From contig JAAWTG010000030.1 of assembly GCA_022801925.1 (NCBI GenBank), positions 1-34,854 of the forward strand: a DNA stretch of 34,854 nucleotides. Reading direction: 5' to 3'. The stretch comes from Clostridia bacterium. GTDB lineage: Bacteria > Bacillota > Clostridia > RUG12999. A program made the position numbers and the translations under genes. Positions 3,836 to 33,296 of this stretch are shown here, in pieces. A model generated the notes under the pieces. It did not search any database and was not told the DNA's origin. It saw nothing but the letters and a program-made list of their open reading frames with translations. Numbering within the stretch: the stretch's first letter is position 1; every line of letters begins with the position of its first letter.

Positions 3836-4346
3836 ATGGCAACATATATGTATTGGCAAAAGCGATTTGACAGAGAAAACCCTAATAAAGAACTTGAAGA
3901 TAAGATCATTGAAATTCGTAAAGAACACAAGGATTTCGGCTATCGCAGAGTTTGTGGTGAATTGAGAAATCAGGATATACGAGCTAATAAGAAACGAGTT
4001 CAAAAAATAATGCAAAAGCTGAATCTTCAAGTGACTTCATTTACTCGCAAAAGCCGTAAATATAGTTCATATAAAGGTAATGTAGGAAAAATTGCACCTA
4101 ATAGGATTAACAGACGTTTTAACACAAGTATCCCACATCAAAAGATAACTACGGATACGACCGAATTTAAGTATTATGCGATAAACAATAAAGCAAGAAA
4201 TGTATTACGGAATTACATATTACAGCTTTGATGAGCTTAAAGAAACTATTGAAAGATATATAAAATATTACAATGAGAAAAGAATTAAAGAGAGACTTGG
4301 GTGGATGAGTCCGGTACAATATCGTCTCAACGCTTTGGCTGCATAA
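3836..4346 (+). pseudogene. IS3-family OrfB transposase, internal out-of-frame deletion
   Basis: The first frame (from ATG 3836) has the normal OrfB N-terminus: MYWQKRFDRENP, then HKDFGYRRVCGELR, and IPHQKITTDTTEFKYYA, the start of the rve core with its first Asp. Near 4190 the sequence jumps. From 4191 in a +1-shifted frame it reads KQEMYYGITYYSFDELKE, then NEKRIKERLGWMSPVQYRL and TAA 344-346 of that block (4344-4346), the normal OrfB C-terminus. About 110 codons with the second Asp and the Glu of the DDE triad are therefore deleted, and the frame is broken. The first frame alone ends at 4231 after a short nonsense tail. It cannot make active transposase. Confidence 0.88.
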
Positions 4347-29319: not shown

Positions 29320-29655
29320 CTATACCTCTTCCAACACGTTATCAATTCTTTCTATGATTTCCTGTTTCTCCTGCCCCTCCTGCAAACGCACAACGCTGCT
29401 GCGGAGTTCTTCCAAATCGGCTTTCACCCGCCGGAACCGGCTGCAAAGCCCCAATTTTTCTTCATATTGCAACAGCAATTTTTCACTCTTTTTTTCCGCG
29501 TCATGAACGCCTTGCCGCGTAATGCCCATTGTCTGTGCAATTTCCGCTAGTGAATAGTCCTCGTTATAATACAGTTCCATCACCTGAAACTGCTTGGGCG
29601 TCAGCAATGCGCCATAGAAATCCAACAGGACAGAAAATTCTAAATTCTTTGGCAT
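29320..29655 (-). CDS. ylxM: YlxM family SRP-associated HTH protein
   Basis: 111 residues, UPF0122. YlxM contains a sigma-70 region-4-like helix-turn-helix (LTPKQFQVMELYYNEDYSLAEIAQTMGITRQGVHDAEKKSEK) and is known to modulate SRP GTPase activity in streptococci. The C-terminal half is helical and charged. It overlaps nothing and ends 3 bp before ffh, the conserved pairing. A near-consensus promoter (29698-29726) and a perfect palindrome (29676-29696) lie just upstream. The ribosome site is weak: AGAGGA is 16 nt away and sits before an ATG-GTG-TAG mini-frame. Confidence 0.92.
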   Translation of the reverse strand: MPKNLEFSVLLDFYGALLTPKQFQVMELYYNEDYSLAEIAQTMGITRQGVHDAEKKSEKLLLQYEEKLGLCSRFRRVKADLEELRSSVVRLQEGQEKQEIIERIDNVLEEV

Positions 29656-29675
29656 TTTTTCTACACCATATCCTC

Positions 29676-29696
29676 TGTAAAGTAATCTACTTTACA
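29676..29696. promoter_or_regulatory. Perfect palindrome at the transcription start of ylxM-ffh
   Basis: TGTAAAGTA-ATC-TACTTTACA, 9-bp perfect arms. It covers about +1 of the promoter at 29698-29726, so it could be an operator or a leader hairpin. Confidence 0.65.
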
Positions 29697-29697
29697 C

Positions 29698-29726
29698 ATT
29701 ATACTGCATATTTCACCAAATGTCAA
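29698..29726 (-). promoter_or_regulatory. Sigma-A promoter of the ylxM-ffh-trmD operon
   Basis: Minus strand TTGACA (29721-29726), 17 bp, TATAAT (29698-29703): perfect consensus. Confidence 0.92.
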
Positions 29727-29773
29727 GAAAAAATTTACATGTGACCAATATTTTTTCGGCGCACGCGAAAAGA

Positions 29774-30070
29774 GGCAGTCCGTCTTCAAAACTAGTTGGT
29801 ATTCTCAAACTGGGGTTAGGAAGGGGTTCACCCCTTCCATAAAATATGCGAAAAATCAGGACATACGTCTGATTTTTCGCACCTTACGGGACGGAAAACA
29901 TACATGAAATGCGGGTTTTATGCGAACTCGCGCCCCGAACTAGGGGGGCATCGTGTGCCCGGAGGGTGCGAGGGGGACATGAGACTGCTTTGCAGACTCT
30001 GAAGTCCCCTTCGTGACCGCTTGTTGACATATGTCAATAAGCGGAAAGGCAGTCCGTTTCACGGACTGCC
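29774..30070 (+). repeat. Hairpin-rich element C, candidate structured RNA
   Basis: This gene-free stretch begins with GGCAGTCCGT (29774-29783) and ends with ACGGACTGCC (30061-30070), 10-bp perfect inverted ends. Inside lie: GGAAGGGG/CCCCTTCC 29819-29838; GCGAAAAATCAG 29848-29859 with 29869-29880; alternatives GCCCC/GGGGGC and GGGCA/TGCCC near 29933-29960; GGGGAC 29973-29978 with GTCCCC 30004-30009 enclosing GAG-A-CTGC/GCAG-A-CTC; CCGCTT-TTGACAT|ATGTCAA-AAGCGG 30017-30044. No CDS is credible. It could be a small RNA ending at the 30048 terminator, or a non-autonomous mobile repeat. Confidence 0.6.
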
Positions 30071-30081
30071 TTTTTGTTTTT
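30048..30081 (+). terminator. Plus-strand-oriented rho-independent terminator
   Basis: GGCAGTCCGT (30048-30057), ttc, ACGGACTGCC (30061-30070), then TTTTTGTTTTT. In the other direction only T3 follows, so it is polar toward the plus strand, where no CDS precedes it. It may still weakly stop the minus-strand stalk-protein gene. Confidence 0.85.
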
Positions 30082-32059
30082 AATCTGTGAATTGAAAACT
30101 TTCTACTACTTTATGCAAAATATCCAGATTGTATTCGCTTGCATAAAGGTCTCGGATAACGGCTGTCACGATATAGATTTTGCCGCCATGAACTGTTACA
30201 TACGTTTCATGGTGGAATACACCGTTATCATTGTTTTGCTGCAGCATGGTATACTTCCGGCAAGCCACACCACCGAGTTTGCTGTTAGACATGGACAACT
30301 CTTTGTAACCATTATTCTTTACCATATCTTTTATATATTTATCATAATCACTCGACAACTCACTGAAGCTAACGTTTGCCGCTTGTGTCGAAACGCCGAT
30401 GGAATTTGAGGATTGGTCGCTTGTGCCATAGACTTCAATCGCGCCGAATCCGATTTGTTTCCAGTCGTCCGGCATTTCTGCCGACCATTTTGCATTGCCT
30501 TTTACAGTGCGGTAGGTCACTTCTTCATCCAACAAATCTTCGTCCAAAATTGTTCCGACGGTCTCCTCGTTGATACCCTCCAGCCGCAGAGAAGCAAACA
30601 TTTTTTCAATTTCCGCAAGGGGTAAACTATCCGGTTTCCCTTCATCGTTTGCCATTCCGTAAATAACCCAATACTTATATCCGTCCCGAATCTGGAAAAA
30701 CTGTTTTTCCTTTGTCACGCTATCTGGCTCTTGCGTCTCGTAGGTAAGCGTTTTCCATGTTCCGCTTTGATTGATCACGTCTTCCCCTTGCGTCACCTTC
30801 ATATATTTGGGATTATAGAGTTTTTCGTCATGCGCCCGCATTTGCGCAATCCAGTTATCCACTGTCATACCGCTTTCCGCCGAGGTGACAACAATGTGAA
30901 ACAGTTTGATTGGCTCCGTGCTTTTACCCGCCAGATTGGCAAAACTCATCTCGTTCTCTTTTTCGCTGACGTCATACCAATCGGGGAACACGCCCAAACG
31001 CACGCCATAGTCTTTGTTTTGATATTCCCGCAGACCATCTGTGTCCACATCGGACAAATCCTCCACCGACTCATCCGCAGCATAGTTCATACGGAAGGAA
31101 TCCAAAAGCGCCAGAATTTCCTGTTTCTGCGCATTATATTTTGCCATGTCGTCATTGGCATAGAACAAAATTACCAGCCAATTGTCTTTTACGCCGAGCT
31201 GTACAATTGCAATTCCGCCATCTTCTTTGTAGGTCAAACGGTTCATTTTCACGCCGTCCACCATAACGGTTTGTTTGCTTTGCAAAACGAGGTCTTCAAA
31301 CGAATTGGCAAACCGGTTCGTGCTGGATTCCAGCGTCTCATTTTCCGGCATGGGAAGCAGTTCCACCAAAATGCTTTCCTCTTCCTCGCTGGTCTGGAAA
31401 ACGGTTTCATTACCATTAAAACTTCGGTATTCCAACGCATATTTCTTCGGCATTTTCATAGACCAGCCATAATAGCTGTCGCCCACGTTTTCTTTCGTAG
31501 ATTTTTTCAGAATCATGGCAAAATCTTTCACGCTGTTGTCATTCGCCACTTTTTTCACAACGGTCACCTGTTCCGTTGCGCCGTCATATCCCACGTCTGC
31601 GCCAAAGTTTTCGCTGATAAACCGCAGCGGTACCATGGTCGTGTCGTTTTGCAGAATCGGTGCTTCCAGCAAAACTGCCTGCTGGTCGCCTACCAGACAA
31701 TCTTTTTTCCCAATCCACACCTGAATCACAATATCGGAATAGGTCAGCGTCACGCTTTCGTCCGCTCCGTTCCAGTCCACCTGCGCGCCAAAGGCTTCAC
31801 TAATCACGCGCAGCGGCACCAAGGTGGTTCCATTGATTTCCACCGGTTTTTGCACCGTTACTTGATTGCCGTTAATGGTCAGTACTTCGCTGCCGAGACG
31901 GAAAGAAATGCTGATTTCTTTTTGTTCATTTGCCGCTGTCTCAATTTCTTTCAGCGGGTCTACCTGCTCCGCTGCCAATACGCCGAATGTCAGCGATTGC
32001 AGCAACAATACGAATACGATTCCCAATACGCGCCATGATGTTCTTTTCTGTGTTTTCAA
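30080..32059 (-). CDS. Secreted stalk-domain protein with three repeated C-terminal modules
   Basis: 659 residues from TTG 32059, chosen because AAGGGGAG lies 8 nt upstream and KTQKRTSWRVLGIVFVLLLQ then begins a clean signal peptide (cleavage near VLAA). Residues about 50-175 carry two CuAO_N/stalk motifs: NGTTLVPLRVISEAFGAQVDW and NDTTMVPLRFISENFGADVGY. Three related modules of about 150 residues follow, each opening like YYGWSMKMPKKYALE, YGVRLGVFPDWYDVS and AKWSAEMPDDWKQIG. They resemble PsbP/DUF1795-type domains and share aromatic-Tyr strands and a closing helix (ALLDSFR, KMFASLR, VVESFQF). No catalytic motif is seen, so it is likely a surface binding protein. It lies 118 bp after the HtrA-like gene; co-transcription is likely. 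Confidence 0.75.
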   Translation of the reverse strand: MKTQKRTSWRVLGIVFVLLLQSLTFGVLAAEQVDPLKEIETAANEQKEISISFRLGSEVLTINGNQVTVQKPVEINGTTLVPLRVISEAFGAQVDWNGADESVTLTYSDIVIQVWIGKKDCLVGDQQAVLLEAPILQNDTTMVPLRFISENFGADVGYDGATEQVTVVKKVANDNSVKDFAMILKKSTKENVGDSYYGWSMKMPKKYALEYRSFNGNETVFQTSEEEESILVELLPMPENETLESSTNRFANSFEDLVLQSKQTVMVDGVKMNRLTYKEDGGIAIVQLGVKDNWLVILFYANDDMAKYNAQKQEILALLDSFRMNYAADESVEDLSDVDTDGLREYQNKDYGVRLGVFPDWYDVSEKENEMSFANLAGKSTEPIKLFHIVVTSAESGMTVDNWIAQMRAHDEKLYNPKYMKVTQGEDVINQSGTWKTLTYETQEPDSVTKEKQFFQIRDGYKYWVIYGMANDEGKPDSLPLAEIEKMFASLRLEGINEETVGTILDEDLLDEEVTYRTVKGNAKWSAEMPDDWKQIGFGAIEVYGTSDQSSNSIGVSTQAANVSFSELSSDYDKYIKDMVKNNGYKELSMSNSKLGGVACRKYTMLQQNNDNGVFHHETYVTVHGGKIYIVTAVIRDLYASEYNLDILHKVVESFQFTD

Positions 32060-32177
32060 ATTTGTCACTCCCCTTTTTTGTTGATCGTGATATCTCCCTT
32101 TGTTCTTTATGTAAACGACCGTTTGAAATGCGCTGTGGCTCTGCCCCTTCTTGTCATTCCGGTCATTCGCATCAACT

Positions 32178-33296
32178 TTACTCTCCTGCACCAAATGTCA
32201 GCGTTTTGTCCTGAATCACACCGCTGCGTTTGATTTTAAAGGACGCCGACTGCCCCGGCTGATACCGTTTCGTCACCTCATGGTAGTCCACTTCATTGCT
32301 GAGTTTTGTTCCGTCAATGCTGAGCACTTGGTCTCCCTTCTGCAATCCCTGCTGCTGCGCCGGACTGTTATTGTGGAACCCAACAATCGTCAATCCCTCA
32401 TTGCTGGGCAAATCATATTTGGCAATCCAATTTTCTTCAAATTCCACCCCCAGATTCGGACGAATCACACGTCCGTTGCTGCGGAACTGCTGCAGGACAT
32501 ATTGCAAGGTGTCCGCGCTGATGGAAAATCCCAGTCCTTCAATGCTGGTTCCCACATATTTAATAGTATTCATTCCCACAACTTGTCCCTGCAAATTCAG
32601 CAATGGTCCGCCGCTGTTACCCATGTTGATGGTTGCGTCCGTCTGAATCAGCCGGTAATAGCTGTCCACACTACGGTTCATACCGCTGACAATTCCCACG
32701 GAAGCAGAATTGCGCAGAGAAAACGAAATGGGTGTTCCAATCGCAATCACCGTCGAACCAATTCGCAGTTCTCCCGCTGCCGCAATGTTCGCCGCCCGCA
32801 GTCCGCTTGCGTTAATATGAATCAGCGCAATATCGCTCTTTTCATCTGTTGCCGTTATCGTTGCTTCATAGCCCGTGCCGTCACCGAGCACCACCAAAAT
32901 CTTTTCCATATCTTTGACAACATGGTTATTGGTTAAAATATCTCCGTCCTCTGTGATGATAAAGCCTGTCCCATGTATGATGGCTTCTGCATATTTCGCA
33001 TTTTTATCCTGCCCGATGATACCGACCACATAGTCTTTTGCATGGTCAATCACGGAAATGACCGCATCTTCCTTGCCGAAAGAAACATATGCCGTGTTGG
33101 TATTGCTGTCCCAGGAGACTGCCGCGCCCATGGTTTCCCCAACGCTGCGCAGCGGCACATATACCCTGTCTCCGACCATAACGCCGTCTCCGATTTGCTG
33201 TCCGTTTACCACAACCTTTGTTATATCTTCCGCTAATACCGTGGTAGCATTTAACAATAAACTTGCTGTAACAATTCCTGCTAGTCCTTTTCTCAT
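32178..33296 (-). CDS. HtrA-like serine protease with N-terminal stalk domain and PDZ domain
   Basis: 372 residues from ATG 33296 (GGGGGA 6 nt upstream). Signal peptide 1-22 (ASLLLNATTVLA). Residues 25-75 form half of a CuAO_N/stalk unit (VGDRVYVPLRSVGETMGAAVSW). The S1C trypsin-like domain follows (about 80-275) with triad H125 (TNNHVV), D155 (SDIALI) and S228 (GNSGGPL). A PDZ domain (about 280-370; NNSPAQQQGLQKGDQVLSIDGTKL) regulates substrate binding. HtrA proteases degrade misfolded exported proteins; the usual Gram-positive form has an N-terminal membrane anchor instead of a stalk domain. The promoter at 33408-33436 probably drives it and the stalk gene. Confidence 0.88.
   Translation of the reverse strand: MRKGLAGIVTASLLLNATTVLAEDITKVVVNGQQIGDGVMVGDRVYVPLRSVGETMGAAVSWDSNTNTAYVSFGKEDAVISVIDHAKDYVVGIIGQDKNAKYAEAIIHGTGFIITEDGDILTNNHVVKDMEKILVVLGDGTGYEATITATDEKSDIALIHINASGLRAANIAAAGELRIGSTVIAIGTPISFSLRNSASVGIVSGMNRSVDSYYRLIQTDATINMGNSGGPLLNLQGQVVGMNTIKYVGTSIEGLGFSISADTLQYVLQQFRSNGRVIRPNLGVEFEENWIAKYDLPSNEGLTIVGFHNNSPAQQQGLQKGDQVLSIDGTKLSNEVDYHEVTKRYQPGQSASFKIKRSGVIQDKTLTFGAGE

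Follow-up and report, generated by a model that had tools for sequence, protein, structure and literature searches.

The hairpin array between ylxM and a large minus-strand gene in the window (the whole stretch of 34,854 nucleotides that was analysed) is best explained as an insertion. We consider it about 85% probable that the array is a non-autonomous mobile element with IS1182-type ends that duplicated part of the terminator it entered. The sequence that had been taken for the competing arm of a switch-like RNA is a by-product of this insertion, not a switch. Moreover, the interior of the element has a conserved fold on the plus strand, which adds a new, structured form to the IS1182-type non-autonomous elements.

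The array interrupts the terminator of a minus-strand gene

The gap between genes spans positions 29655–30080, with ylxM (minus strand, upstream of ffh) on one side and a large minus-strand gene (30080–32194) on the other. The original prediction pointed out that the terminator arm GGCAGTCCGT occurs at both 29774–29783 and 30048–30057, and that the 3′ arm ACGGACTGCC at 30061–30070, followed by TTTTTGTTTTT, can pair with either copy. Both observations are correct and, with the preceding A included, the arm is an exact 11-bp direct repeat, AGGCAGTCCGT (29773–29783 and 30047–30057 on the plus strand). It is also true that the terminator has no matching gene on the plus strand, but it is that of the minus-strand gene at 30080–32194. 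Its palindrome (30047–30071, minus strand) was the insertion target, and the arm at 30047–30057 is the second copy of the duplication.

The site without the element is found in the sister genome G001, where the same gene pair flanks one unbroken terminator, AAAAAGGCAGTCCGTTTCACGGACTGCCTTTTTCG, and both the element and the upstream repeat copy are missing. In the alignment, the window is longer than G001 at this site by 275 bp, which is approximately the 263-bp element (29784–30046, plus strand) plus the 11-bp duplicated arm. Because G001 has a single terminator and no element, the two copies of the arm represent a target-site duplication. The apparently orphan plus-strand terminator is thus a two-way terminator that serves the minus-strand gene; the insertion displaced the T-tract of that gene. 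The T-run on the plus strand is the A-tract upstream of the hairpin of the minus-strand gene, read backwards. We also observed that the terminator loop (window 30057–30061) is inverted relative to L042 and L043, reading TTC in one and GAA in the other in the same direction; either palindrome repair or the insertion itself could be the cause.

Orthologous empty sites with one hairpin each were also found for three other copies (L003, L004 and L012), making four such loci with the window. The left and right flanks of the same copy share 11–31 bp in 12 of 20 copies, compared with 6 of 380 cross-pairs, and at least two of these six (those sharing 20 bp) are orthologous sites. Where they are visible at other copies (12–31 bp), the flanking repeats are target-derived and comprise part or all of a terminator-like hairpin. 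Examples are the duplications at L004 (15 bp), L012 (16 bp), L007 and L040 (both 20 bp), L036 (29 bp; orthologous to L007 and L040) and L075 (31 bp, TATAGTGGGAGGTAGCGAATACCTCCCATTT). Copies in another genus are flanked by duplications of 23, 20 and 18 bp, and two copies in a second bacterial family, f51, by hairpin duplications of 17 and 19 bp (L150 and L163). No duplication was detectable at L002, L003, L005, L008 and L038 among the 20 copies. The variable lengths suggested retrotransposition, an idea that we rejected: the variation mostly reflects duplication of the whole hairpin followed by partial loss, as in the comparison of L036 with its two orthologues.

The ends of several copies match those of IS1182-family insertion sequences

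The sequence CAGACTGTAGACAAAA is present exactly at the ends of L003, L004 and the contig end C94, and it is also the end of L137 and L134. Two copies start with CAGACTGTAGACAAAACT adjoining the target hairpin. L137, a complete insertion sequence found by scanning viral contigs for CAGACTGTAGACAAAA, has the hairpin AAGCATCCTTCGGGATGCTT followed by the end, a transposase gene, an inverted copy of the end and a repeat of the 20-bp hairpin. The transposase belongs to the IS1182 family (NCBIfam NF033551, 485 bits; Pfam DUF772 and DDE_Tnp_1_6). The same layout is seen in the plasmid-borne IS1182 elements L145 and L147, with hairpin duplications of 30 and 24 bp, respectively. L147 ends in CAGACYGCTGACAAACCC, and CAGACCGCTGACAAACC, with which copies in genus g3 begin on the left, equals its end. 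One of these two plasmid-borne elements, from Rhizobium, has the ends CAGACTGCTGACAAACCCC and CAGACCGCTGACAAACCCG, which match this g3 sequence. Copies in f51 have the ends GACTACTGACAAACCC next to hairpins. L137, L145 and L147 share with several copies of our element the ends CAGACTG(TA/CT)GACAAA, insertion into terminator palindromes and duplication of the whole hairpin. The window element differs from them in being only 263 bp long, in lacking a transposase and in having an unrelated interior made of hairpins. Phage contigs L124, L127, L128 and L142 contain a hairpin, CAGACTGTAGACAAAA and a second hairpin with no second end nearby. They appear to be IS1182 remnants, and L127 seems to retain a decayed start of the transposase.

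Members of the IS1182 family are known to behave in a similar way. IS1272 enters terminator hairpins, and both IS1272 and TnSha1 of staphylococci target terminator stem–loops whatever their sequence and in both orientations (PMC4923244, PMC5678879). However, they are reported to delete or replace the stem–loop without duplication (PMC4923244, PMC5678879), whereas here the hairpin or its arm is duplicated; this counts against our assignment. Across the IS1182 family, duplications span 2–60 bp (PMC7335449). IS1182-related MITEs have been described in Methanosarcina acetivorans (160–169 bp; PMC3852290); they are likewise short and non-autonomous, but belong to another domain of life, and the passage describing them reports no conserved covarying interior. 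BOX/RUP/SPRITE and ERIC are also small intergenic repeats whose transcripts are predicted to form stable hairpins, but the review's description sets them apart by their ends, target and fold (PMC10969869). The IS1202 family, one subgroup of which makes duplications longer than 15 bp (PMC10132070), was considered as a source of the long duplications and dropped, as the ends match IS1182.

Several other points speak against the IS1182 assignment, which is based on the ends and the target. The window copy has no clear left end: it is trimmed to CTTCAAAACTAG and lacks the CAGACTGTAGA of other copies, and its diverged right end retains only TTGACATATG. The right end includes a self-complementary palindrome, CCGCTTGTTGACATATGTCAATAAGCGG (30017–30044, plus strand), of which GTGACATATGTCAC is also found in the right ends of L012 and L071. 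As described above, some copies have no detectable duplication, and the lengths vary. Finally, searches of nine genomes of the bacterial family, the window genome among them, yielded no IS1182 transposase (no DUF772 match in G000–G002 and no tblastn match in any of the nine), although these are drafts that break at repeats and lose repeated insertion sequences. The missing transposase may be explained by draft assembly, by loss or by mobilisation from elsewhere. Elsewhere in the window, at 3836–4231, a short plus-strand ORF seems, as judged by eye, to be the remnant of an IS3-type transposase, a portion of which it resembles (HKDFGYRRVCGELRNQDIRANKKRVQKIMQKLNL).

Distribution of the element and its relatives

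With a covariance model, eight resolved copies of the window element's family (family A) were identified in the window genome, the window copy itself matching at 29812–30015 with 182.9 bits. In a sequence search, the copies elsewhere in this draft genome are 73–86% identical over a common part corresponding to 29787–30029 or less, and additional copies lie at broken contig ends (C51/C28 and C94). Two further genomes of the same genus carry copies, while sequence searches detected none in 57 other genomes. The covariance model reached further: it picked up family B, a divergent set of copies within this genus, as well as copies in another genus and, with up to 73 bits, in five genomes of f51. 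The named relatives are uncultured Clostridia. No copies were found in phages, plasmids or viral contigs. A match in one Nocardia contig from the genome collection looks like chance, and the other matches there are from the same genus. The set of copies differs between close relatives. Most family A copies lie behind a gene that runs in their own direction, whereas copies in genus g3 do not.

Family B (L104–L118; for example, L109:193–387 on the minus strand and L112:206–400 on the plus strand), a relative of the window element with very strong covariation, occurs in multiple copies, and no IS1182-type ends were detected in it. Several of its copies are located directly 3′ of genes for helix-turn-helix (XRE-like) proteins ending in ..DELLGR(N). 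Just downstream of one copy, L118:432–586 has a sub-threshold match to the T-box leader (51 bits, cut-off 93). Composite intergenic repeats (GGGGGCAAAGAGCGGAGGATATTT.., GGAGGACATTTTTCACGAGG..), in which the genus is rich, adjoin family B copies (L021, L023:1600–1960 and L030:1600–1823). In addition, a 25–29 nt motif, GGACATACCCTCTGGGGCACGCGTG(YGCC), occurs at the tips of hairpins with completely different stems (L013:626–654, L016, L019 and L022–L035); the tips of other copies lack it.

The interior has a conserved plus-strand fold

The hairpin array is not due to chance, and its reading as a compact plus-strand fold is supported. The plus strand folds with −152.4 kcal/mol (z −11.3, none of 100 shuffles as good), and the minus strand more weakly, with −127.2 kcal/mol (z −8.8). 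At minimum energy, the downstream copy of the arm is the one that pairs in the terminator hairpin. Of the plus-strand features, hairpin H2 (29819–29838, GGAAGGGG/CCCCTTCC), helix 1 of alignment A2, has 96.9% of cells paired and no two-sided changes. Hairpin H3 (29848–29880, GCGAAAAATCAG/CTGATTTTTCGC), helix 2, has two-sided changes at 5 pairs, and in some copies an 18-nt insertion in its loop. The region 29887–29937 forms a branched stem, H4 (29887–29892/29932–29937), around hairpin H5 (29895–29905/29909–29919); these are helices 4 and 5, the latter with two-sided changes at 7 pairs. Hairpin H7 and its inner stem H8 (CGAGGGGGAC ... GTCCCCTTCG; 29967–30015) correspond to helices 7 and 8, with 100% and 94.6% of cells paired. 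Two stems near 29933–29960 had been proposed to be mutually exclusive; covariation backs the long-range stem H4, while the local alternative involves invariant bases.

Compensatory changes are abundant in the homologues, so the fold withstands the refuting case named in the original prediction, stems that vary without compensation. In the family A alignment (12 copies, 67 predicted pairs), paired cells make up 97.6% and two-sided changes occur at 19 pairs, compared with 6.6 in shuffles and 2–4 in controls with slid partners. Independent alignments revealed two-sided changes at 27 of 49 pairs for family B and at 30 of 49 for f51. In genus g3 the count is 1 of 64, its seven copies being too alike to add much. 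The order of hairpins and the long-range stem H4 are kept across the two bacterial families. Moreover, G·U variants occur at 36 pairs and A·C variants at 7 (alignments A2, A3 and A4; p = 9e-6, a guide only, as the copies are related), counting only pairs whose commonest type is Watson–Crick. Since an A·C on one strand is a G·U on the other and G·U is commoner, it is on the plus strand that pairing has been maintained. Neither the window nor the elements had a match above the cut-off in Rfam with curated or permissive thresholds; TD-2 scored 30 bits against a cut-off of 48.7.

The window copy and L075 have the most mispaired cells among ten independent family A copies, although part of the L075 count is due to an alignment shift. 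Because the window copy is also antisense to both neighbours, it is probably not a working RNA.

Weighing the alternatives

The original prediction saw the layout of a switch-like RNA, akin to an attenuator, whose upstream copy of the arm would vie with the downstream one for the 3′ arm. Both arms can indeed pair with 30061–30070 and the fold is very stable, yet the empty site contradicts this reading: the upstream arm was absent before the insertion, and at other visible insertions its place is taken by different, target-derived sequence. In addition, the terminator serves a minus-strand gene, and the minimum-energy fold keeps it intact. A simple consensus scan found no promoter-like site on the plus strand before the array; both flanking genes are on the minus strand, and a similar scan found a perfect minus-strand promoter for ylxM (TTGACA-17-TATAAT, 29726–29698). 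We regard a switch as very improbable. A mover of another kind with a preference for hairpins or terminators, be it a REP-type tyrosine transposase, IS200/IS605 or a group IIC intron, would fit palindrome-rich intergenic repeats sited at terminators. It is scarcely more probable, because the ends of several copies match IS1182 elements exactly and whole-hairpin duplications of 20–31 bp are not known for any of these systems.

The conserved fold raises different questions. The paired changes might have arisen from template-switch repair of imperfect palindromes rather than from selection for a folded RNA. The stems are all close to perfect palindromes, and the terminator loop of the window, inverted relative to the sister genome, is a change that such repair can make. 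However, repair has no strand preference, which is at odds with the excess of G·U over A·C, nor does it account readily for the long-range stem H4 and the hairpin order kept across families. We therefore think this explanation unlikely. A stronger contender sees in the interior primarily a functional noncoding RNA, comprising family A and the related family B, which was spread on IS1182 ends with mobility being secondary. The covariation of family B in the apparent absence of IS1182-type ends, the location of several of its copies just 3′ of helix-turn-helix protein genes and the plus-strand bias all favour it. On the other hand, copies in both bacterial families (f1 and f51) have IS1182-type ends and hairpin duplications, and copies differ between close relatives. 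We see this as a minority possibility, at about one chance in four. A further variant, in which the covarying RNA takes part in mobility itself, for example, by recruiting the transposase or guiding it to terminators, seems to us improbable; if true, these would be RNA-assisted IS1182-type elements, and family B would be a related RNA acting without ends.

A proposed model for the mobile element and its putative RNA

According to the preferred reading, a mobile element with IS1182-type ends, an IS1182-family transposase acting in trans would insert the elements into terminator palindromes. Insertion duplicates part or all of the palindrome, as judged from the flanking repeats, and the insertion itself is seen at the four loci with empty sites. 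In the window, insertion took place in the terminator of the gene at 30080–32194 on the minus strand and one arm of 11 bp was duplicated; the left end of the element was presumably trimmed afterwards. The interior would most likely be read as RNA when the transcript of an upstream gene runs through the terminator, and the folded RNA might make an insertion at the 3′ end harmless or protect the 3′ end of the transcript. Such a role is a tentative proposal, to which we give a fairly low probability. The window copy lies antisense to both of its neighbours, and it probably does not give rise to such an RNA.

The locus illustrates that an insertion targeting a terminator can mimic an attenuator, since the duplicated arm passes for part of a switch as long as the empty site has not been seen. 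It also documents duplications of whole terminators for the IS1182 family, whose best-studied member is reported to make none. Finally, it brings to light a putative family of structured RNAs that covary strongly, have no match in Rfam and travel with short mobile elements in two or more families within a single bacterial class. How such RNAs might serve a transposable element thereby becomes a directly testable question.
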